Positions 5,567 through 56,209 of a DNA stretch of 64,000 nt are shown here, piece by piece. Where the stretch lies: the NCBI GenBank assembly GCA_030827135.1, contig JAURFE010000002.1, positions 1 through 64,000 of the forward strand. Reading direction: 5' to 3'. Every line of letters starts with the position of its first letter. The first letter of the stretch is position 1. The position numbers and the translations under genes were made by a program. Under the pieces are notes generated by a model. The model had not been told where the DNA came from. It saw nothing but the letters and a program-made list of their open reading frames with translations, and searched no databases. The stretch is from Vicinamibacterales bacterium. Lineage in GTDB: Bacteria > Acidobacteriota > Vicinamibacteria > Vicinamibacterales > SCN-69-37.

Positions 5567-6579
5567 GTCGTGAGCCTCGCGCGGGTCGGGGTTCGCTCAC
5601 GCGCGTCTGCGACGCGCTGAGCCAGCCACGTCTCAAACTCCGGGCCGTCATCGTCGGGCTCGATCGTCACGGAGTGGCCGAGGACGTGGAGGTCGAACGG
5701 CAGCGGCCGGAACGGCCGCAGCCGTTCGGCGTCTTTGGCGGTCGTCAGGACGGCGATGGCCGGGGCGCCGGCCGCATCGGCCGCATCGGTGAGCGCGCGG
5801 ACGTCGCGCGCGAGGCGCGCGACGTCCGCGCGCGTGTAGCGATGGTGGTCGCCGGGGGCCCACTGGCCGGCGACGACGTAGCCGGCGTCTTCGGCCGCGC
5901 GCGCGACACGCGCGGGGCCGGCGATGCCGGCGAGGACGAATACCTGCGCGCCGGCCGCCAAGCCGGCGGGGGCGTGGGTGTGGCGATGGAGCCGAAAAAG
6001 ACGTCGGGTGTCTTTTTCATCGAAAAAGACACCCGACGTCTTTTTCGGGGCGTCACCGTCCACCACCACCGCGTCCGCCCGCGCGAGTGCCGACGGCGAC
6101 TCGCGCAGGCGGCCCAGTGGCACCCGGCGACCGGTCAGGTCGCCGGGTGCCACCAGCACCAGATCCACATCACGGTGCATCTCCCGATGCTGAAACCCAT
6201 CGTCCAGCACGACCGCCGTGGCGCCCAGGACGTGCTGCGCCAGCGCGGCCGCAACGGCGCGCTGATCACAAACAAGCACGGAAATTCCGGGCAATTCGCG
6301 GGCGAGCATGAGGGGTTCGTCGCCGGCATGGTCGAGGTCAGCGAGGATCTCCGACCCGTCGCTGACCACCGTGACCCCATCGGCGACCACACGCCGGCCA
6401 AACCCCCGGGAGAGGATGGCCACACGCTCGCCCATCGCCTGCAGGGTGCGGGAGACACAGGCAACAGTCGGGGTCTTCCCGCGCCCGCCAAAGGCGATGT
6501 TTCCGACACTGACAGAAAAGACGTCGGGTGTCTTTTTCGACGAAAAAGACACCCGACGTCTTTTTTCGGGCAGGGTCAT
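5563..6579 (-). CDS. lpxK: Tetraacyldisaccharide 4'-kinase with two palindromic insertions
   Basis: Phosphorylates the 4' position of the lipid A disaccharide. The core has SVGNIAFGGRGKTPTV (Walker A), VLSRGFGRR-type sequence, and LDDGFQHREMHRDVDLVLV, as expected. Two features are odd. First, only about 22 residues precede SVGN (about 50, including a membrane anchor, is usual), and these are largely repeat-derived ([17 protein letters not shown], element at 6515-6567). Second, a further copy at 5992-6048 inserts [17 protein letters not shown] after RADAVVVDGDA, in the loop before VFVLAGIAGPARV. The ATG at 6579 overlaps the waaA stop (ATGA) and is the natural start. The catalytic core is intact, so the gene is probably functional, but membrane anchoring may differ. 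Confidence 0.9.
   Translation of the reverse strand: MTLPEKRRRVSFSSKKTPDVFSVSVGNIAFGGRGKTPTVACVSRTLQAMGERVAILSRGFGRRVVADGVTVVSDGSEILADLDHAGDEPLMLARELPGISVLVCDQRAVAAALAQHVLGATAVVLDDGFQHREMHRDVDLVLVAPGDLTGRRVPLGRLRESPSALARADAVVVDGDAPKKTSGVFFDEKDTRRLFRLHRHTHAPAGLAAGAQVFVLAGIAGPARVARAAEDAGYVVAGQWAPGDHHRYTRADVARLARDVRALTDAADAAGAPAIAVLTTAKDAERLRPFRPLPFDLHVLGHSVTIEPDDDGPEFETWLAQRVADARERTPTRARLTT
5992..6048. repeat. Nested palindrome, copy A3, in frame inside lpxK
   Basis: A 57-bp inverted repeat centred on 6020 with one mismatch beside the centre. The 53-bp core is that of copy A1. It is read in lpxK in the same frame as in waaC ([17 protein letters not shown]). Confidence 0.95.
6515..6567. repeat. 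Nested palindrome, copy A4, in frame at the lpxK N-terminus
   Basis: The centre is 6540; 24-nt arms are perfect, with length variation only in the outer A/T tract. It is read in a different frame from A1 and A3, giving [16 protein letters not shown]. Confidence 0.95.
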
Positions 6580-13022: not shown

Positions 13023-14885
13023 ATGCCCCTGCTGATTGCCGACCACCTGTCCCACGCCTTTGGCCACCTCCCCCTTCTGGTAGACGGGTCGCTGCAAATC
13101 GACGCCGGCGAACGCATCGCCATCGTCGGGCGCAACGGCACGGGGAAATCCACGCTGCTGAAGATCCTGGCAGGGAACATTTCGCCGGATGCGGGCACCG
13201 TGTGGACGGGCCCCGGCGTGAAGGTGGCGCGACTGACGCAGGACGTCATCGATGCGGGCGAGACCGCCACCACGGTGCGCGGCGTCGTCGCCGAAGGCCT
13301 GCACGAACTGGCCGTGGCGCATCACCTCGAGGACTGGGAACAGGAACAACTCGTGGACCAGGTGATGAAACGCCTGAACCTCGACCCGGACCGGCTCATC
13401 AGCACGCTGTCGGGCGGATGGCGGCGACGCGTAACACTCGCGCGCGCGCTGGTCGTCCAGCCTGATCTGCTGCTGCTTGACGAACCGACGAACCATCTCG
13501 ACATCGACACGATCACGTGGCTGGAATCGCTGCTGATCGGATTCGCCGGAGCCGTCGTGTTCGTCACACACGACCGTGCGTTTCTACAGAAGGTCGCCAC
13601 GCGACTGGTGGAACTCGATCGCGGTGTATTGACGTCGTACGGTCGCGGCGTATCCGTCAAAGGCGCGCCGGCCCTGCCGGTGTACGAAGAGTATCTGCGC
13701 CGCAAGGAGGAAGACCTCGCGATCGCGGAAACGGCACACGCAAAGTTCGACAAGAAGCTTGCGCAGGAAGAGGCGTGGCTGCGCCGCGGGATCAAGGCCC
13801 GCCGCACCCGCGACGAAGGCCGCGTCAAGGCCCTGCTGGCCATGCGCCAGGAACGTGCGGCGCGACGCGACGTGCCGGGACAGGTCAAACTGTCGATCGA
13901 GTCATCGGGGCGCACGGGACAGGCGGTGTTTGAGGCAAAAACCATTTCAAAGACATTTGTGGTCGAGGGTCCAGGGTCCAGGGGCCAGGGTCCGCTCATT
14001 GCAAACTTCTCCACGCGCATTATGCGGAAGGACCGGATCGGGTTCCTCGGGCCGAATGGGGCGGGGAAGACGACGCTGCTGAAGATGCTGATCGGGGAGT
14101 TGGCCCCTGACAGCGGCACGGTGGAGCGCGGGACGAACGTGCAGATCGCGTATTACGACCAGCAGCGCGAACAACTGGACCCGGATCGCACGGTCGTGGA
14201 CACGATTGCCGATGGCAACGACTGGGTCACCGTCAACGAACAGAAGCGCCATGTGTTCAGCTACCTCGAAGACTTCCTGTTCCCGCCCGAACGCGCGCGG
14301 TCGCCGGTGAAGTCGTTGTCAGGTGGTGAACGCAATCGCCTGCTGCTCGCGCGGTTGTTCACGCAGCCGTCGAACGTGCTGGTGCTCGACGAACCCACAA
14401 ACGACCTCGATCTCGAAACCCTCGAGCTGCTCGAAGCCCAGCTTGTGGACTTCCCCGGCACGGTGCTCCTTGTCAGCCACGATCGCGAATTCCTCAATCG
14501 CGTCGTGACATCCACGATCGCCTTCGAAGGCGACGGTGTCGTGCGCGAATACGTGGGGGGCTATGACGATTACCTGAGGCAGACACAAGTGGTCCGAGGG
14601 TCCAGGGTCCAAGGTCCCACCCAACCTCACCCAACCTCACCCAACCTGACCCAACCTGTCCGCCGGAGGCTGTCCTTCAAGGAACAAAAAGAACTCGACG
14701 GGATGGCGGCGAAGGTCGAGGCGACTGAGGCTCGGCAGCGCGAGTTGGAAGCGGCCATCGCGGCACCGGAGTTTTATCGCGGCGGCGCCAAGGCGATCCA
14801 GGACACGCTCGCGGATCTCGAGAAGGTCAAAATCGAGCTCGACACGCTGCTTCATCGGTGGACGGAACTCGAAGAAAGACGCTGA
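13023..14885 (+). CDS. ABC-F family ATPase (Uup type)
   Basis: A soluble twin-ATPase protein; ABC-F proteins act on the ribosome as translation factors or antibiotic-protection factors, and Uup members also bind DNA structures. Domain 1 has Walker A GRNGTGKST (residues 36-44), LSGGWRRR and LDEPTNHLD; domain 2 has GPNGAGKTT (about 343), LSGGERNR and LDEPTNDLD. The inter-domain linker is Arg/Lys-rich, and the C-terminal coiled coil typical of Uup is present (KEQKELDGMAAKVEATEARQ). Two repeat-derived insertions are in frame: VEGPGSRGQGP before domain 2 (GGTCCAGGG units) and RGSRVQGPTQPHPTSPNLTQP before the C-terminal coil (GGTCCAGG and CCCAACCTCA units). No membrane segments occur. Confidence 0.93.
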   Translation: MPLLIADHLSHAFGHLPLLVDGSLQIDAGERIAIVGRNGTGKSTLLKILAGNISPDAGTVWTGPGVKVARLTQDVIDAGETATTVRGVVAEGLHELAVAHHLEDWEQEQLVDQVMKRLNLDPDRLISTLSGGWRRRVTLARALVVQPDLLLLDEPTNHLDIDTITWLESLLIGFAGAVVFVTHDRAFLQKVATRLVELDRGVLTSYGRGVSVKGAPALPVYEEYLRRKEEDLAIAETAHAKFDKKLAQEEAWLRRGIKARRTRDEGRVKALLAMRQERAARRDVPGQVKLSIESSGRTGQAVFEAKTISKTFVVEGPGSRGQGPLIANFSTRIMRKDRIGFLGPNGAGKTTLLKMLIGELAPDSGTVERGTNVQIAYYDQQREQLDPDRTVVDTIADGNDWVTVNEQKRHVFSYLEDFLFPPERARSPVKSLSGGERNRLLLARLFTQPSNVLVLDEPTNDLDLETLELLEAQLVDFPGTVLLVSHDREFLNRVVTSTIAFEGDGVVREYVGGYDDYLRQTQVVRGSRVQGPTQPHPTSPNLTQPVRRRLSFKEQKELDGMAAKVEATEARQRELEAAIAAPEFYRGGAKAIQDTLADLEKVKIELDTLLHRWTELEERR

Positions 14886-15005
14886 CGGTCCAGGAGTCCA
14901 GGAGTCCAGGAGTCCAGGAGTCCAGGGGTCCAGGGGTCCAGGGGTCCAGGGGTCCAAGACCAACCGCCCACCCGCCCACCTACCCACCCGCCCAGCCACC
15001 GCCCG
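14886..15005. repeat. GTCCAGGAG tandem array followed by CCCACCCGCC repeat
   Basis: About nine copies of the 9-bp unit GTCCAGGAG/GTCCAGGGG between 14888 and 14957, then degenerate CCCACCCGCCCA units that run into the apbE 3' end. The gap lies between two convergent genes. Confidence 0.9.
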
Positions 15006-16020
15006 CCCGACAGAACGTCACCCCGACAGGCAATGTGACGTTCCACAACTCCTCGTCCGTCAGCACACTGAGCGCTGTGGCCCAGGCATCGGCCGTCGCG
15101 CCGTCGGGGGCGCGCACGTGGACGGTGCGGTGACTGGTCAGGCCCAGTCCCGTGCTCGGGTCCACCACGTGTGAATACCGCACGCCATCGATGACGACAA
15201 ATTGTGCGGTCGCGCCGGAGGTGGCCAGGGCGGCGTTGGCGAGGGAGACGGTCGTGGCGTTATTGGCGCGCTCAAGTTCAGCGCGCCCTCGTTTGGCCCG
15301 CTCAAGTTCAGCGGGCCCTCGTTTGGCCCGCTCAAGTTCAGCGGGCCCTACATGTTCAGCGAGCCCTACATCACATCCCACTTGCGCCACCCATCCGCGC
15401 GAGCTGCGGGGAGGGGTGCCGGCGACGATGTCGCCGCCGGCGTCGATGAGCGCGGCGGTGATGCCGTGGTCGCGCAGAGTGTCCATCGCACGCTGGAGGA
15501 TGTAGCCCTTGGCGATGCCGCCGAGGTCGAGGCGCATGCCGGCAACGGGCAGCCGCACGAAAAAACCTCCCGACGTTTTTTCCAGATGCAGGCGCGACCA
15601 GTCGACGAGCGCACGGGCGTCGGCGAGGCGATCGGGCGCCGGGAGGCGGCCGGACCGGCGCGCCTCGCGCCACAAGACGACGACGGGAGCGATGGTGGGA
15701 TCAAACGCGCCGTGGGTCGCGCGCGCCACGTCCACGGCCTGCGACAAGACAGCGAACACGTCGGGATGGACCTGCAGCGCATGTGGCGCGGCGCGCTCGA
15801 TGGCGCGCAGGTCGCTGTCGGGCCGGTAGTCGCTGAGCCGCGCGTCGAGCGCGGCGATGGCCGCAAACGCGGCCTCCCCCGCCCTCCGCGCGGCCGCCTC
15901 ATCGGGCGCCTCCATCGCGATCCGCACTTCCATCCCCATATGGACCTGCCGATAGACGTAAGATTCCCGAAATGAAGTCGGAAGAGTGGCGCACGACAAG
16001 GACAGGACCGCCACGCACAA
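14980..16020 (-). CDS. apbE: FAD:protein FMN transferase (ApbE family) with repeat insertions
   Basis: Attaches FMN to a Thr of extracytoplasmic flavoproteins such as Rnf/Nqr subunits. The core has MRLDLGGIAKGYILQRAMD, LIDAGGDIVAGTPP, ALATSG and YSHVVDPSTGLGLTSHRTV. The start is uncertain: a TTG at 16020 gives CVAVLSLSC, a lipobox; the ATG at 15939 would remove it. Three repeat insertions are in frame. EKTSGGFF comes from a half copy of the nested palindrome (15559-15582). AELERAKRGP-type 10-residue repeats come from 30-bp hairpin units (15265-15347) and lie just before the SLANAALATSG motif. The C-terminal GGGWAGG runs into a CCCGCC repeat. No Rnf or Nqr genes are in the window. Confidence 0.88.
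   Translation of the reverse strand: MCVAVLSLSCATLPTSFRESYVYRQVHMGMEVRIAMEAPDEAAARRAGEAAFAAIAALDARLSDYRPDSDLRAIERAAPHALQVHPDVFAVLSQAVDVARATHGAFDPTIAPVVVLWREARRSGRLPAPDRLADARALVDWSRLHLEKTSGGFFVRLPVAGMRLDLGGIAKGYILQRAMDTLRDHGITAALIDAGGDIVAGTPPRSSRGWVAQVGCDVGLAEHVGPAELERAKRGPAELERAKRGRAELERANNATTVSLANAALATSGATAQFVVIDGVRYSHVVDPSTGLGLTSHRTVHVRAPDGATADAWATALSVLTDEELWNVTLPVGVTFCRAGGGWAGG
15265..15377. repeat. Tandem 30-bp hairpin units (family B) in frame in apbE
   Basis: Three units of 23 nt (GGCGCGCT or GGCCCGCT, loop CAAGTTC, complementary arm) spaced by CTCGTTT, starting at 15265, 15295 and 15325, plus a degenerate fourth. The 30-bp period keeps the reading frame and encodes a 10-residue repeat of the AELERAKRGP type. 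The second and third copies have GC swaps matched on both arms (GCGC to CCCG). Confidence 0.93.
15559..15582. repeat. Half copy of the nested palindrome in frame in apbE
   Basis: A single hairpin GAAAAAAC, loop CTCCCGAC, GTTTTTTC. The loop shares CCCGAC with the full 53-bp elements. It is read as EKTSGGFF, close to the KKTSGVFF of waaC and lpxK. Confidence 0.8.
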
Positions 16021-16024
16021 GAAA

Positions 16025-16080
16025 ACGGTCCAGGGGTCCAGAGGTCCAGGGGTCCAGGAGTCCAGGAGTCCAGAGGTCCT
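16025..16080. repeat. GGTCCAGGG/GTCCAGGAG array between divergent genes
   Basis: About six copies of the 9-bp unit fill the gap between the apbE start and the FGE-like gene. If the latter starts at ATG 15972, the array encodes part of its N-terminal region (RGPEVQGSRSPGVQRS). Confidence 0.9.
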
Positions 16081-16085
16081 TCCTC

Positions 16086-16853
16086 GTGGCGGTCGCGATG
16101 ATCGTGGCCGCGACCAGTGTGCTTGCACAGTCACAACCCTCAACGTATCGCGAAACGATTGCCGGCACGCTGGTGAGCTTTGAAATGGTCCTGGTGCCGG
16201 GGAGCGCGACGCAGCCGTCCTTTTACATGGGCCGCACGGAAGTGACGTGGGACCTGTACGACGTGTACGCGCTGGGACTTGATGCAGACGCCCCGAAGCC
16301 GGCAGGCCTCGATGCGATCGGTCGTCCGTCGAATCCGTACGGCGCGCCTGACTACGGCTGGGGACACGCGGGGTACGCCGCGATCAGCGTGACCCGGCAC
16401 GCCGCCGAATCGTTCACGAAATGGCTTTCCCTCAAGACGGGACGGGAGTATCGTCTCCCCACCGACGCGGAGTGGCAGCACGCGGCGACGCTCGCCTGGC
16501 AGGGCAAGACCGCCGACGAAGTCGCCTGGCACGCCGGCAACGCGGGTATGGTGACGCATCCGGTGTCCAGGAAGGCACCCGACGCGTTGGGATTGTTCGA
16601 CCTGTTTGGCAACGCCGGGGAATGGGTGATGACCCCGGGCGACACACGCGTAATTCGCGGCGGCACGTATCGAAGCGGCCCGGATACCATCGGCCCGACC
16701 GCGCGCGCCGAACAGGACGAGACGTGGAACGAACGCGACCCGCAGCTGCCCAAGAGTCAGTGGTGGTTGTCGGACGGACCCTTTGTTGGATTTCGTGTGG
16801 TCCAGGGGTCCAGGGTCCAGGGTTCGGGTCCAGGGGTCCGAGGGAGAAAAGCG
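16086..16853 (+). CDS. Exported SUMF1/FGE-like domain protein, no stop codon of its own
   Basis: Formylglycine-generating-enzyme (SUMF1) fold: VLVPGSATQPSFYMGRTEVTW, then YRLPTDAEWQHAA, GLFDLFGNAGEWV, VIRGGTYRSGP and the terminal GFRVV. The N-terminus VAVAMIVAATSVLAQ is a signal-peptide core cleaved after Ala. I place the start at GTG 16086; an ATG at 16098 or 15972 is possible, the last adding a repeat-encoded basic region but running antisense to the apbE start. No cysteines are visible in the domain, so the two catalytic cysteines of true formylglycine-generating enzymes are missing. A sulfatase-activating role is therefore unlikely, and a structural or binding role more likely. The frame continues into the next gene. 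Confidence 0.75.
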
Positions 16854-18164
<1,311 letters not shown>

Positions 18165-42072: not shown

Positions 42073-42142
42073 GCAGGGCGCGCTACAGCCCAGCGCGCCC
42101 TACGTACCCGCGGCGCGCTGCAGCCCAGCGCGCCCTACTGCG
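42073..42142. repeat. Two family B hairpins between convergent genes
   Basis: GGGCGCGCT-ACAGCCC-AGCGCGCCC and, 37 bp on, GGCGCGCTGCAGCCCAGCGCGCC, separated by CTACGTACCCGC. The second overlaps the end of the BNR gene. Confidence 0.85.
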
Positions 42143-45935: not shown

Positions 45936-46060
45936 AGGGCGCGCTGGGATTGAGCGCGCCCTGGGCCCACGACGCGGTTCATGGTTCGCGGCGGGAGTGG
46001 CCCGCTCAAGCTCAGCGGGCCCTACATGCCCATGGCGCGCTACAACCCGGCGCGCGCCCT
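45936..46060. repeat. Cluster of family B hairpins with a GGTTCATGG unit
   Basis: Hairpins GGGCGCGCTGGGATTGAGCGCGCCC, GGCCCGCTCAAGCTCAGCGGGCC and GGCGCGCTACAACCCGGCGCGC, each followed by CCTACATG or similar, fill a 137-bp convergent gap. A GGTTCATGGTTC unit lies at 45978. Confidence 0.85.
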
Positions 46061-50867: not shown

Positions 50868-53516
50868 TCAACGCCTTCCTTCCCGCCCGTGGTACACGTC
50901 CGCGGGAATGTGGTGGCCGGCATAGACGCGGCTGAGCAGGTCAAAGAGCGCCGGGTCGTAGGCGCGCAGGGAGTCGGGCGTCCACAGGCGTTCTCCGGTG
51001 GGCGCGTTCCATGCGTAGTTGGACCAGAACCACCACTGTGAACCTTCGGCCCAATACTCGGCGACCGTGTTTTCTGCGTAGTGGCCTTTGAAACGACCAG
51101 CGGCCTTCGCGGCCTCGTACGCCTTCTGGATGTCGGCGTGGAGCGCGGGATCGGCGGTGCGGAGCGCGCTCATGACGCCGTGTGAAAACTCGTGCACGAG
51201 GATGTGTTCGCCGTAGTAGCGCGTGCCGGGGATGCCGAGGATGTTCTCCTCACCGGCCGTGGTGTACCGCCCGCCGAGTCCGCGCGCCCGCCGGTTCCAG
51301 TACTCCGCGTCGGTCATCGACGCAATGCCGCCCGGCAGGTTGTACCGTTCACGCTCCGAGGGCGTGAGGCGCCGGTCGTCGATCGCCGGCTTCCTGTAGT
51401 CGCGATACTCGGGCAGGTCCGCCTGCCCCTGGAAGCGGCCGATGATCCCCACGCGATACCCCTGGCGCACCATCTCCGTGCGGACGTCCGGCCGCTTCAG
51501 CAGCATGTAGTTCACGATGTCTCGGGCCATGAGAAGCGCGGTGTCATCCACCACGCCGGACGCGACAATCGGAATGCCGAACGCGTCCGCGTGTTTTTCG
51601 TAGAACGGGTCCAACGTCAGGGTTGCCGGCGGCGGGCCGACCGTCCATGCGGCAAACGATGCCGCGAGAGGTTCCGTCACGCCGGGCTCCCCACACGGCG
51701 GAATGCGGAACGCCCCGATGCGTGACGCATAGTTGGCCGCGCCCCTGGGATAGTAGTCGCCGACATACCAGATCGTGCAGTCGTCGAGCGGATCGATCGC
51801 GGTCTGCGTGTAATCCTCCCATCGCAGGCCATACGTCTGCGCGGCTTCACCTTCCGCCAGCACGGCTTCGCGCAACCCCAGCACGCCCGGAGGATCGGAC
51901 GCACGCCGCGCGGCGAACCGCTGCCCGGCAAAGTGCGGCGTTCCGCCGAACGAATACCCGACGCCGATGTTGCCGAAACGGTCCATCGCAGGACTCGCCA
52001 TCCAGCGATAGAACCCGTCGGGCGCGTACGTCCCCTGCTGATGCAACCGCGCCGACCGATCCTGATTGAGGCGGAACTCGTACCACCGCACGCCGCCGGC
52101 GGCGGCTTCGGTATTCACGGAGTGCACCGCCACAAGTGATTCGTGTGTGGCGCCGCCGCTCGACACATGCCGATACACCACGCGCGCCATCAACTTGTCG
52201 CCCTGCGCGTCGAGCCGCCGATCCGTACCCGGCTGCGGTACACACGTCGTCAACTGCCCACCGCAGAGGTACTGATAGGGCGCGACTGGAATCTTTGTGA
52301 CGGGCGTCAGCCGTGTCTTCGACGGATCCGACCAGTCGACATGAAAGTTCCACAGATACACACCATCGTCATCCGTATCCCCATTGAGCTGCGATCCGCC
52401 GGTGGCGAGCATGGGATTCGGCGCACCGGCCGGCGGCAACCGCGTGCCGTCAAGGTCCGCGTTGTTGAGGAAGTTGACGTCGGCGATGACGAGGCACTGT
52501 TCGGTCGCCGGCTCTCCACGCAACATCCGCTGCCGATCGACGACACACGCATGTTTCTCGATCACGTCATCACCCGTGCTCGTCGGTACGTAGTACCCAT
52601 CAGGCCACACGGCCGGGCGCGGGTAATCCGGAAACAGTGGCCGCAGGAATTCGTACCGGTAGTACTCGCCGAGCGGGTCGTCGGTCACGCTGATGGCGTA
52701 ACACATCGAGTACGGGCCAGTTGCCGTGGCAGGTTGGGTCGGGTTGGGGGCAGGTTGGGTCGGGTTGGGGGCAGGTTGGGTGGGGGTTGGTGGGGTTGGT
52801 GGCATCCGGGCGGCGGAGCCGGGCTGACCGGCGACGCCGGGAATGCTCACAACGGCGCGGTCAGAGGCGGAGGGCACCGGGGGCTGATCGGGACGGGCAG
52901 CGCTGCGTCGAAAGATCGGCATCACGATCAGCCAGCGATTGGCCAGCTGGTCGTAACGCACGACGGTGTCGCCGTTGTTGCGCGCGTCACACGTGCCCGT
53001 GAATCCTGCAAACACGGTGTTGTTCGGCGCCGATCCCCAGAGGACCTTGCCTTGTTTGTCCCACACCGCCATCCGGGTGTTCACTGAGGCCATCACGTGG
53101 CGAGGCCCGACGGCCAGACTGTTGTCGGACGGATTACGAAGGGCTCCCGGTCCCTGTTCTCCTTCAAAGCTGACACCGAGGCCTTCGAACTGCCGCACCA
53201 GGGCAGGCGCCGGCCCGGTGCCCATGCCGGTCTGCTCCACTGCGGCGCCTGACGCGCTCCGTGGTGCTTCGGCAGGTCGGCCTGTCGGCGTCGCAGGTGC
53301 CTGAGACTCATCGGTGCCGGTCGCCCGCAGACCAACCGTCGCGTCGCTCGCGATCGCAAGGGCATCAAGGCGCGGCGACCGGTCGTGTGCCAGCGCGGGT
53401 CGCACCGTGGCGCCCAGGACTTCAGGTGGCAGGTCAGCGGTCAGCGTGCGGACCGAAGGCGCGGTGCCGACCAGAATCAGAGCGATGCCCGACAGCAACT
53501 TCCAGGAACATTTCAT
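50868..53516 (-). CDS. Exported HEFSH metalloprotease-like protein with a central repeat insertion
   Basis: An 882-residue protein with a signal peptide (MKCSWKLLSGIALILVGTAPSVRTLTA). The N-terminal two thirds look like a propeller or beta-rich region (NSLAVGPRHVMASVNTRMAVWDKQG; RYDQLANRWLIVMPIF). The C-terminal part has ILVHEFSHGVMSAL (zinc HExxH, about residues 775-779), and AENTVAEYWAEGSQWWF about 35 residues later. This pattern resembles anthrax lethal-factor-like gluzincins. Residues about 239-262 are a Pro-rich insertion (PTQPAPNPTQPAPN) encoded by GGTTGGG repeats. The substrate is unknown. The start is ATG 53516; homologues should decide whether one or two ancestral genes are fused. 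Confidence 0.7.
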   Translation of the reverse strand: MKCSWKLLSGIALILVGTAPSVRTLTADLPPEVLGATVRPALAHDRSPRLDALAIASDATVGLRATGTDESQAPATPTGRPAEAPRSASGAAVEQTGMGTGPAPALVRQFEGLGVSFEGEQGPGALRNPSDNSLAVGPRHVMASVNTRMAVWDKQGKVLWGSAPNNTVFAGFTGTCDARNNGDTVVRYDQLANRWLIVMPIFRRSAARPDQPPVPSASDRAVVSIPGVAGQPGSAARMPPTPPTPTQPAPNPTQPAPNPTQPATATGPYSMCYAISVTDDPLGEYYRYEFLRPLFPDYPRPAVWPDGYYVPTSTGDDVIEKHACVVDRQRMLRGEPATEQCLVIADVNFLNNADLDGTRLPPAGAPNPMLATGGSQLNGDTDDDGVYLWNFHVDWSDPSKTRLTPVTKIPVAPYQYLCGGQLTTCVPQPGTDRRLDAQGDKLMARVVYRHVSSGGATHESLVAVHSVNTEAAAGGVRWYEFRLNQDRSARLHQQGTYAPDGFYRWMASPAMDRFGNIGVGYSFGGTPHFAGQRFAARRASDPPGVLGLREAVLAEGEAAQTYGLRWEDYTQTAIDPLDDCTIWYVGDYYPRGAANYASRIGAFRIPPCGEPGVTEPLAASFAAWTVGPPPATLTLDPFYEKHADAFGIPIVASGVVDDTALLMARDIVNYMLLKRPDVRTEMVRQGYRVGIIGRFQGQADLPEYRDYRKPAIDDRRLTPSERERYNLPGGIASMTDAEYWNRRARGLGGRYTTAGEENILGIPGTRYYGEHILVHEFSHGVMSALRTADPALHADIQKAYEAAKAAGRFKGHYAENTVAEYWAEGSQWWFWSNYAWNAPTGERLWTPDSLRAYDPALFDLLSRVYAGHHIPADVYHGREGRR
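52731..52800. repeat. GGTTGGGGGCAGGTTGGGTC tandem repeat, in frame
   Basis: About three copies of an 18-21-bp unit read as NPTQPAP in the metalloprotease-like gene. The same CCCAACCT motif is repeated in the ABC-F gene at 14623-14661. Confidence 0.9.
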
Positions 53517-53575
53517 GCGGGGGAGTGTCGCACAATCCGGCCGATCCATCACAGCCGCGCCCGCCGGCACCTGTC

Positions 53576-53700
53576 GGCGCGCTCAAGTTCAGCGCGCCCT
53601 ACGTACATCGGCGCGCTCAAGTTCAGCGCGCCCTACGTACATCGGCGCGCTCAAGTTCAGCGCGCCCTACGTACGTCGGCGCGGTCGAGTTCAGCGCGCC
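53576..53700. repeat. Four tandem 34-bp family B hairpin units
   Basis: Units begin at 53576, 53610, 53644 and 53678. Each has GGCGCGCT-CAAGTTC-AGCGCGCC followed by CTACGTACATC. The fourth has GGTCGAG variants and contains the xylB stop codon. The first three are almost identical, indicating recent tandem duplication. Confidence 0.95.
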
Positions 53701-55205
53701 TGACGCACGACCTGCTCGAACGCCGCGTACTGTGCTCGCAGGTCGCGGTACACCGAGACCGCGTCAGGTCGCGGCGCAAAGACCTGCCCTGTCGGCTGCG
53801 CGAGGTCGCACGTCACGTCGTGCCACGAGAGCGGGTGGCTGGACGATGCGGCGTCGGCGTGCCAGGCACGGAGCGCACCGCCAAGGCAGGCCGAGTTGCC
53901 GACGTGGAAGCGCCTGACAGTGGCGTTGAACACATCGGCCATGATCTGCAGGATGTCGTTGTTCACTGCGGCGCCGCCGGTCGCGTGGATATCGCGCACG
54001 TCCACGCCCATCCACGCGGAGTGATTGGCCATCGCCATCATCTGCGCCTCGAGCACGGCACGCACATTCGCCGCGGCGTCAGCAGGGTCCAGGTCGCGCC
54101 GATGGACGCCGGGCGTGGGCATGTCCGGAGTAATTTCGGGCTCGAACCACGGCAGCATCAGCCGGCCGTGATTGCCGGGCGGCGTCGCCCGCAACGCGGC
54201 GGACACACCCGGCCAGTCGAGGCCATACGTATCCCGGACGGTCTCGCGCGCCAGGGATCCGTTCTTGAAGACCGTAATCCCCATGTAGTCGCCCGTGGGA
54301 GCGCCAAAGACATGTCCCGTGCCGCCGGCGTCAACCCGCGGCTCGCGCATCAGGCCGAAAATGGTGTCGCTGGTGCCCAGTGACACCCCTACGCGCCCTT
54401 CCTCGATGAGGCCCGTGCCAATCAGGCTCGACGGATTGTCACCGGTCCAGACGACGACGCGCGCGGCGGGCAGGCGGAAGCGCGCCTGCCATCGCGGCGC
54501 GAGTGTGCCGATGATCGTCCCGGCCGGCACAATCATCGGCAACCGCGTCGCCAGGCCAGGCGCCGTCGCCTCGACCGCGTCCGGCCACCAACTGCCGGTC
54601 GACAGGTCCATGAGGTTCATGCCGCTGGCGTCACCGGGATCGAGAGGAGCCTCGGCATCGATCAGCTCCGACGCCAGGAACGAACTGACCAGATGCACCC
54701 GCGCGGTCTCCGCGTAGCCGTGCGGATCTGTCTCGAAGAACTTCCGGATCTGCGGCCCCGTGAACCGCTCGAAGGCGCGCGACCCCGTGCGCGCGGCCAG
54801 GGCGGCCGCCCCGCCGAGTGCCTGAGTGATTTCCAGACACTCGTCGCGCGTACTCGTGTCCATCCAGATCGGCGCGACGGACCGCGAGAAGCTGCCGTCA
54901 GCGGCGAGATACACGCTGCCGTGCTGCTGCGCCGCCCCAGAGATGGCGCGCAGGGTCGACAGGTCGTGCCCGCTCGACGCCAGCGCCGCGAACATGAGCT
55001 CGAGCGCCTCCGCCCACATCGCCGGAGGAGACACGGCCACCGACGGGTCCTCCGTCGGCAACACGCCGTGGCGCGTCCCGTACTGCGGCAGCGAGTCATC
55101 AAACGGCATCGCGTGCTCCCAGACGACCGACGCACGCCCATCGGTCACACGAATCAGGACGGCAGATACGCTCTGTGTTGAGCTATCGAGGCCCAAATAG
55201 GTCAC
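53691..55205 (-). CDS. xylB: Xylulokinase-like FGGY carbohydrate kinase
   Basis: Phosphorylates a ketose, most likely D-xylulose, to feed the pentose phosphate pathway. The 504 residues have the N-terminal ATP-fold motif VTYLGLDSSTQSVSAVLI, ISGAAQQHGSVYL, PIWMDTSTRDECLEIT, VWTGDNPSSLIGTGLIEEGRVGVSLGTSDTIFG and the C-terminal DIHATGGAAVNNDILQIMADVFN (in part), all FGGY features. I choose the GTG at 55205, which overlaps the upstream stop as GTGA and has GGGAA 6 nt upstream. A GTG at 55217 would add four residues. The 3' end lies in a hairpin repeat. Confidence 0.88.
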   Translation of the reverse strand: MTYLGLDSSTQSVSAVLIRVTDGRASVVWEHAMPFDDSLPQYGTRHGVLPTEDPSVAVSPPAMWAEALELMFAALASSGHDLSTLRAISGAAQQHGSVYLAADGSFSRSVAPIWMDTSTRDECLEITQALGGAAALAARTGSRAFERFTGPQIRKFFETDPHGYAETARVHLVSSFLASELIDAEAPLDPGDASGMNLMDLSTGSWWPDAVEATAPGLATRLPMIVPAGTIIGTLAPRWQARFRLPAARVVVWTGDNPSSLIGTGLIEEGRVGVSLGTSDTIFGLMREPRVDAGGTGHVFGAPTGDYMGITVFKNGSLARETVRDTYGLDWPGVSAALRATPPGNHGRLMLPWFEPEITPDMPTPGVHRRDLDPADAAANVRAVLEAQMMAMANHSAWMGVDVRDIHATGGAAVNNDILQIMADVFNATVRRFHVGNSACLGGALRAWHADAASSSHPLSWHDVTCDLAQPTGQVFAPRPDAVSVYRDLRAQYAAFEQVVRQAR

Positions 55206-56209
55206 ACGGGTTCCCACTGGCCTGAGGCCGCGGATCGAACCACTGCGTCGATGATCGCCATGTTGCGAACGGACATCTCGAGCGGGTAGGGCGGTGGCGT
55301 CTTCGTCAGGATGGCTTTGGACAAGGCGTCGCCCTGGATCCGGTACTGATCGCAGGTGTCAAACGACAACGTCTCCATGTGGCCACCCGACAAATCCCCG
55401 CCATCGTCCATCCACACACGGCAGGGGCGATCGTTCGGGGCGTTGAACGGAATCTCGACCTCGAGACGTTTGGCGGTGCCGAGGATCTGTACGCGCTGGT
55501 AGGGCACGACGCGCGTACTGCACAGGCCAACGGCCTGCCCCTGCGGGTAGTCGAGGATTATCGACGTGAGGATATCGACGCCTGACACCGGGTCCTGCTC
55601 CATCGTTCCCATGACACGCCGCGGCTCGTCACCAAATGCCATGCGCGACGTGATGATGAGATAACATCCGATGTCCATCAGTCCGCCACCGCCCCACTCG
55701 GCCACATTTCTGATGTTCGACGCATCGTTGTTGTAATAGCTGAACACGCCGGAGTAGCCGCGCACCTCGCCGATCATGCCGGACCGGCAGAGGTCCACCA
55801 CGCCTCGCCATTGCGGATGCGTCCAGACCATGAAGGCTTCCTGGATCGTGACACCGGTGCGATCACGAATCGCGATCAATTCGCGGGCCTCGGCGGCGTT
55901 CAGGCCAATCGGCTTTTCGCACAGCACATGTTTGCCGGCCTCTGCGGCGGCTTTGGTCCATGGCAGGTGCAGATGATTCGGCAGCGGGTTGTAGATCGCA
56001 TCCACATCCGGATCGGCAATGAGCGCTTCATACGAGCCATGGGCCTTCGGGATGCCGAGGCGCGTCGCGGTCTCGCGGGCCTTCTGCCCGTCGCGCGACG
56101 CAATCGCGACCACCTCGGTATGGGCCCCGCCCTGCATCGCCGGAATCACCTTCTCGACCGCGATCTTCGCGGCCCCCAGACACCCCCACCGTAATTTTGA
56201 ATCTGCCAT
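55202..56209 (-). CDS. Gfo/Idh/MocA family sugar dehydrogenase
   Basis: A 335-residue NAD(P)-dependent oxidoreductase without signal peptide. It has Rossmann motif RWGCLGAAKIAVEKVIPAM, VDAIYNPLPNHLHLPWTKAAAEAGKHVLCEKPIGLNAAEA with the EKP catalytic Lys, and QEAFMVWTHPQWRGVVDL, the sequence style of D-xylose/glucose-fructose dehydrogenases (each in part). It is coupled to the xylulokinase gene (GTGA overlap), supporting a pentose or related sugar as substrate, though kinase and dehydrogenase need not act on the same molecule. Confidence 0.88.
   Translation of the reverse strand: MADSKLRWGCLGAAKIAVEKVIPAMQGGAHTEVVAIASRDGQKARETATRLGIPKAHGSYEALIADPDVDAIYNPLPNHLHLPWTKAAAEAGKHVLCEKPIGLNAAEARELIAIRDRTGVTIQEAFMVWTHPQWRGVVDLCRSGMIGEVRGYSGVFSYYNNDASNIRNVAEWGGGGLMDIGCYLIITSRMAFGDEPRRVMGTMEQDPVSGVDILTSIILDYPQGQAVGLCSTRVVPYQRVQILGTAKRLEVEIPFNAPNDRPCRVWMDDGGDLSGGHMETLSFDTCDQYRIQGDALSKAILTKTPPPYPLEMSVRNMAIIDAVVRSAASGQWEPV

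Follow-up and report, generated by a model that had tools for sequence, protein, structure and literature searches.

In-frame copies of a RAYT-linked GTAG REP element in a loop of an ApbE-family protein of a Vicinamibacterales bacterium

The apbE gene and its hairpin array

The window analysed here, a stretch of 64,000 nucleotides from a Vicinamibacterales bacterium, carries on its minus strand (14980-16143) a gene for a probable lipoprotein of the FAD:protein FMN transferase family, ApbE (PF02424, E 3.5e-61, 207.5 bits against a cut-off of 25.6). The TTG start listed for the gene is uncertain; the lipobox reads LSLSC, its Cys codon being located at 15991-15993, and the N-terminal region is odd in being built of 8-bp repeats. 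ApbE/Ftp relatives in the PDB match the protein at E 5e-31. An AlphaFold2 model based on 19 sequences displays a mean pLDDT of 88 and a confident core, and its best Foldseek match is the Treponema pallidum Ftp (PDB ID 4xdt, E 2e-23).

An ABC-F type ATPase is encoded at 13023-14885, and octamer-like tandem repeats, CACCCAACCT and GTCCAGGA, are found at 14618-14657 and 14888-14956, within its linker or just past it. The same ATPase of the sister species (G004) has a comparable repeat-derived linker, and hence simple repeats too enter proteins here. A GGTCCAGG repeat at 16799-16835 links an FGE-sulfatase-like and a GFO/IDH-like frame in a 730-aa ORF (15972-18164). As the GFO/IDH-like gene of G004 has a separate frame with a Tat-type start, this joined ORF is probably an open-frame artefact.

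Three 23-nt hairpins start within apbE at 15265, 15295 and 15325, exactly 30 bp apart. A sequence-only reading of the window had proposed that they extend ApbE in frame by a 10-residue repeat. This is borne out by Tandem Repeats Finder, run on the window (15263-15349, period 30, 2.9 copies, 96% match), and by the translation, GPAELERAKR GPAELERAKR GRAELERANN, which leads directly into VSLANAALATSG and so lies, as also proposed, just ahead of the ATSG motif. The core GCTCAAGTTCAGC has six exact matches in the window, three in this array and three in another at 53576; with at most one mismatch, nine matches are found against 0.03 expected from shuffles, which excludes chance for the hairpins.

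All units of the array are read on the minus strand. In gene order, copy 1 (15325-15351) is composed of GTAG-GGCCCGCT-GAACTTG-AGCGGGCC and codes for VGPAELERA. The hairpin of copy 2 (15295-15317), GGCCCGCT-GAACTTG-AGCGGGCC, is preceded by CGAG in place of GTAG. Copy 3 (15265-15287), GGCGCGCT-GAACTTG-AGCGCGCC, codes for GRAELERA and is the one hairpin of the three that is altered at both stem arms (GGCGCGCT/AGCGCGCC vs GGCCCGCT/AGCGGGCC), so that pairing is kept. CGAG replaces GTAG in two of the three copies; having no tag left, copies 2 and 3 probably stem from duplication and not from insertion. A fourth, partial unit, GTAGGGCTCGCTGAAC, with a period of 18, lies upstream of copy 1 (15354-15369). 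Elsewhere in the gene, a 24-nt palindrome, GAAAAAACGTCGGGAGGTTTTTTC (15559-15582, minus strand), resembles a second transposase-linked repeat. It encodes EKTSGGFF, which sits in a beta-turn and adds a net two residues relative to related proteins, and its G004 counterpart, GAAAAAGCGTCGGGTGCCTTTTTC, is closer to the consensus of that second repeat. Judging from this resemblance, it is likely a third insertion into apbE, of the second repeat type.

The ApbE loop was compared between species, each relative being represented by one assembly, in many cases a draft. This homologue alignment, which had been put forward as a check, yields a region between GW and ATSG of 61 residues here, 43 in G004, 40 in G003, 35 in G001 and 29 in both G005 and G094, which carry no insert. 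In G004, a single REP copy occupies this loop and is read in the same frame (GPAELERA), with a GTAGGTGGT-type tandem ahead of it; G001 harbors the second repeat, in frame, in this loop (DAEKDTRRLFRRGS; GAAAAAGACACCCGACGTCTTTTT, EKDTRRLF); GAAAAAGACACCCGACGTCTTTTT was also located independently at C69:26277. No recognisable repeat was found in the longer loop of G003. With one REP copy in the G004 loop and the second repeat in that of G001, the sequences indicate at least two separate entries into the loop, by palindrome families that are unrelated. The net insert lengths are all multiples of three across the four species with longer loops, and no frame break in apbE was found in any relative examined in detail. 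To note, a GTAGGTGGT-type tandem (GVGGVG) precedes both the in-frame G004 copy in apbE (L064) and that at L235 (around G004 C7:76108), which suggests that the tandem is either generated from the REP end or carried along with it.

The insert stands out in the model by its weak prediction (pLDDT 45-69): it loops out between strands 191-196 and 236-241 and would form a flexible, helical segment. Outside the loop, the comparison with G004 over 255 codons gives a dN of 0.098, a dS of 0.449 and a dN/dS of 0.22, and the invariant columns of the alignment (GAFDPT, SG, H, D) are all retained. Together with the confident predicted core fold and the inserts in multiples of three, these observations suggest that ApbE function is probably retained, and the insert is probably neutral for catalysis. 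The earlier proposal that ApbE is still under selection is supported, on the strength of the homologues and not of the contrast between 30- and 34-bp spacings alone.

The REP family and its linked transposases

The window holds further copies of the same element. An intergenic array at 53576-53700 (minus strand) is made of three intact copies and one degenerate copy spaced by 34 bp (53574-53700 in Tandem Repeats Finder, period 34, 3.7 copies in the window). It begins where the ORF 53691-55217 (minus strand) stops, the end of this ORF falling in the last degenerate copy, and ends ahead of the start of the ORF 50868-53570 (minus strand). No coding-like frame spans this array, which was rejected as coding; the same hairpin does occur outside genes at 34-bp spacing, as had been noted. 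Two more copies, 35 bp apart, lie outside any coding-like frame at 42077-42138 (minus strand), and a pattern match reveals an inverted pair at 45938-46025.

The unit is 27 nt long and consists of GTAG followed by a hairpin whose 8-bp stem encloses a 7-nt loop, its commonest form being GTAG-GGCSCGCT-N7-AGCGSGCC. The pattern GTAGGGCSCGCTGN{3,8}AGCGSGCC has at least 140 copies in the genome that harbors the window and 158 in the sister species; none was found in five other genomes of the same genus, and a reversed-pattern control gave no match. The census below covers loci around the pattern matches listed, that is, the first 100 of 140 of the own genome and those listed for the sister. At these sampled loci, an exact GTAG is present on 229 of 272 hairpins. 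Among the 231 GTAG-tagged units read, 218 have stems with all eight pairs, and the two main stems co-vary (GGCG 116, GGCC 88). Outside genes, inverted pairs outnumber every other type of pair in the sampled loci of both genomes (60, of which 47 at 23-30 bp and 13 other), and no inverted doublet was found there inside genes, where copies are single or direct. Some 152 of the 164 sampled clusters have no coding-like frame across them. A GTAG tag, paired stems and inverted pairs are features of GTAG REPs (PMC3733652, PMC8266576). A palindrome of 20-40 bp with GTAG at one end, a high and mainly extragenic copy number and frequent inverted doublets (BIME/REPIN) are all observed here: the hairpins are a GTAG-tagged REP element.

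Two Y1_Tnp genes are encoded by the same genome (PF01797 above cut-off). The RAYT at C51:143181 is bordered by GTAG hairpins on its upstream and downstream sides, the first downstream hairpin overlapping the gene end. Its G004 relative is 77% identical and likewise hairpin-flanked. The nearest other homologue in the genus (46%) belongs to G005, whose genome is devoid of this REP. The arrangement of a REPtron, a Y1_Tnp gene with hairpins of the same REP family on both sides, is observed at L002 and L128. The other Y1 transposase is flanked by 24-25-bp inverted repeats of the second unit, AAAAAGAC-ACCCGAC-GTCTTTTT, which is dispersed in four of seven genus members (G000, G001, G002, G006) and barely detectable in G004. 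Four paired copies of this second palindrome (GAAAAAGACACCCGACGTC, inverted pairs) are located in the window at 787-827, 1803-1843, 6000-6040 and 6520-6560. Another Y1 transposase of G004 (L120, C11:90678) has a different long inverted repeat downstream, GAAAATGAGCTCGGAGGCGATTTC, possibly a third family. The apbE unit thus belongs to a RAYT-linked REP with at least 140 genomic copies, which accounts for the hairpin in ApbE, for its being mobile and for its occurrence in further genes. RAYT-driven spread of REPs is itself still debated.

REP copies in other genes and the reading frame

A codon-usage scan of the two genomes shows coding-like frames across 12 of the 164 hairpin clusters, one of which (L238) is doubtful. 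Beyond ApbE, coding calls rely on codon usage, family models and ortholog alignment. In the own genome, a gamma-glutamyltransferase carries an in-frame copy with a reading identical to that of ApbE (GRAELERA). In-frame copies are also found in PbpC, PntA and an RDD-like membrane protein named by eye, and there are two in DnaX (48 bp) and two in a SucB-type E2 (63 bp). The in-frame copies of G004 are located in apbE, the same RDD-like membrane protein, a HEAT-repeat/cyclophilin-like protein (named by eye) and the CcoN-CcoO junction (60 bp). Orthologues were compared for SucB, DnaX and the gamma-glutamyltransferase. SucB has two copies here, one in G004 and none in the other relatives; the DnaX copies occur here only, among the orthologues compared; and the gamma-glutamyltransferase copy is present in both carriers and absent from G001 and G006. 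These differences among orthologues imply gain or loss of copies.

At the CcoN-CcoO junction, the own genome harbors a five-unit array of about 30 bp per unit. Here (L278, C33:302176-303102) and in G004 (L277, C7:153021-153893), ccoN and ccoO form a single ORF via the in-frame REP array; the two genes are separate in G002, G003 and G005, where they overlap or abut at the stop/start. Internal re-initiation at an ATG just past the array is possible.

In the GTAG-first orientation, one of the three frames of the unit is stop-free, and every GTAG-first coding case reads that frame; all three are stop-free in the opposite orientation. Part of the frame filter is this very restriction of GTAG-first copies. 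The sequence-only reading had suggested that the coding array is filtered for multiples of three. The contrast between one 30-bp and one 34-bp array, on which it drew, is weak and is rejected as evidence: it amounts to a one-in-three coincidence, given that the three copies inherit a single spacing through duplication. What stands of the proposal comes from the independent coding arrays, spaced by 30 bp in apbE, 48 in dnaX, 63 in sucB and 30 in ccoNO (60 in G004): the spacing is divisible by three in all four, compared with 10 of 30 other direct arrays (Fisher one-sided p = 0.022, post hoc, an array having to be open to count as coding). The census is suggestive of a filter for triplet spacing in coding arrays.

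Origin of the inserts and comparison with known systems

We consider it very probable that a RAYT-linked GTAG REP entered the apbE loop and was duplicated in tandem, the frame being kept by purifying selection. The element is linked to the RAYT (Y1/HUH) transposase, whose gene lies elsewhere in the genome, and may be spread by it. Before this species and its sister diverged, a single copy would have entered the loop between two beta strands in their common ancestor, ahead of ATSG, in the one stop-free frame of its orientation (VGPAELERA). In this lineage, the 30-bp unit, hairpin plus 7-nt spacer, would then have been duplicated in tandem, presumably by slippage, and one copy would have changed at both arms of its stem, by conversion or co-variation. 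Events that break the frame or the core would be cleared by purifying selection on ApbE, so that only in-frame loop expansions survive. The relatives display the corresponding empty and single-copy sites.

The inserts could instead be adaptive, REP peptides being kept in linkers and loops because they tune host proteins or, as stable hairpins in the message, mRNA. Entry of two families into the same ApbE loop, recurrence of REPs in DnaX, SucB, PbpC and PntA linkers and at the CcoN-CcoO junction, and strong predicted mRNA folding would fit this reading. We judge it unlikely, however: the inserts sit in flexible loops or linkers, as expected under neutrality, copy number is unequal between the sisters, and genes are avoided, given that only about 12 of the 164 sampled clusters cross coding-like frames. 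Far less probable still is an ordinary protein repeat, a coiled or helical AELERAKRGP grown by slippage under protein-level selection, the hairpins being coincidental. The tandem 30-bp unit was itself probably copied by slippage, and the segment is helical by prediction, but the 27-nt GTAG palindrome is found in at least 140 places, mainly outside genes, in both orientations and with co-varying stems. In other genes, it is also read in other frames (18 residues, not shown), so that it is the DNA that is conserved and not the peptide; the pure protein-repeat reading is rejected on these grounds. A decaying apbE pseudogene whose frame survived by chance, which two different mobile palindromes and the odd 8-bp-repeat N-terminal region might evoke, is just as improbable and is rejected in view of the dN/dS, the lack of stops, the intact motifs and the triplet insert lengths in four species.

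Beyond RAYT-linked insertion into apbE, we tentatively propose that two unrelated transposase-linked palindrome families may be a source of in-frame protein segments in this lineage, repeatedly entering the same tolerant loops and linkers with triplet-compatible growth, and that one REP array may have replaced an overlapping stop/start, fusing ccoN and ccoO; we lean slightly against so broad a reading. The natural series of a loop with no insert, one copy, three copies or another family is a clean one in which to ask by what route mobile palindromes turn into protein sequence and what selection on the reading frame permits. Since the element also lies in dnaX and sucB, which are presumed to be essential, and at a possible gene fusion, what such inserts cost or contribute can be put to the test.

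The kind of event is already known. In-frame GTAG REPs were described in 2013 (PMC3733652, BMC Genomics 2013), and Rickettsia palindromic elements earlier. In the available text of that study, GTAG REPs lie in frame within conserved proteins of several species, often grouped, adding about 20-30 residues, and are thought tolerable in linkers and loops. The present palindromes, in frame in conserved proteins, are alike; the host lineage is new and the comparative series unusually clear, and that text has no mention of ApbE, of two families in one loop, of a frame-spacing test or of a gene-joining REP array. Least expected are two features, the convergence of two families on one ApbE loop and the presence of a REP array between ccoN and ccoO; searches of the open-licence literature revealed no earlier description of either.

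As in REPtrons (RAYT-TnpA_REP, PMC8266576), a Y1 gene is flanked by GTAG REPs of a genome-dispersed family, a likeness drawn here from sequence; unlike E. coli REPs, the unit is free of a bulge, its 8-bp stem enclosing a 7-nt loop. Rickettsia palindromic elements (PMC3733652, PMC10969869) are likewise mobile palindromes translated inside conserved proteins. The likeness is one of kind only. These elements are longer (~150 bp, PMC10969869) than the 27-nt unit with its linked RAYT. Finally, TIRYT repeats, in which long inverted repeats border a RAYT gene (PMC3733652), resemble the second repeat, AAAAAGACACCCGACGTCTTTTT, which flanks the other Y1 transposase on both sides (24-25 bp) and is dispersed. 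Unlike TIRYT, this second repeat also lies in frame within the apbE of the relative G001.
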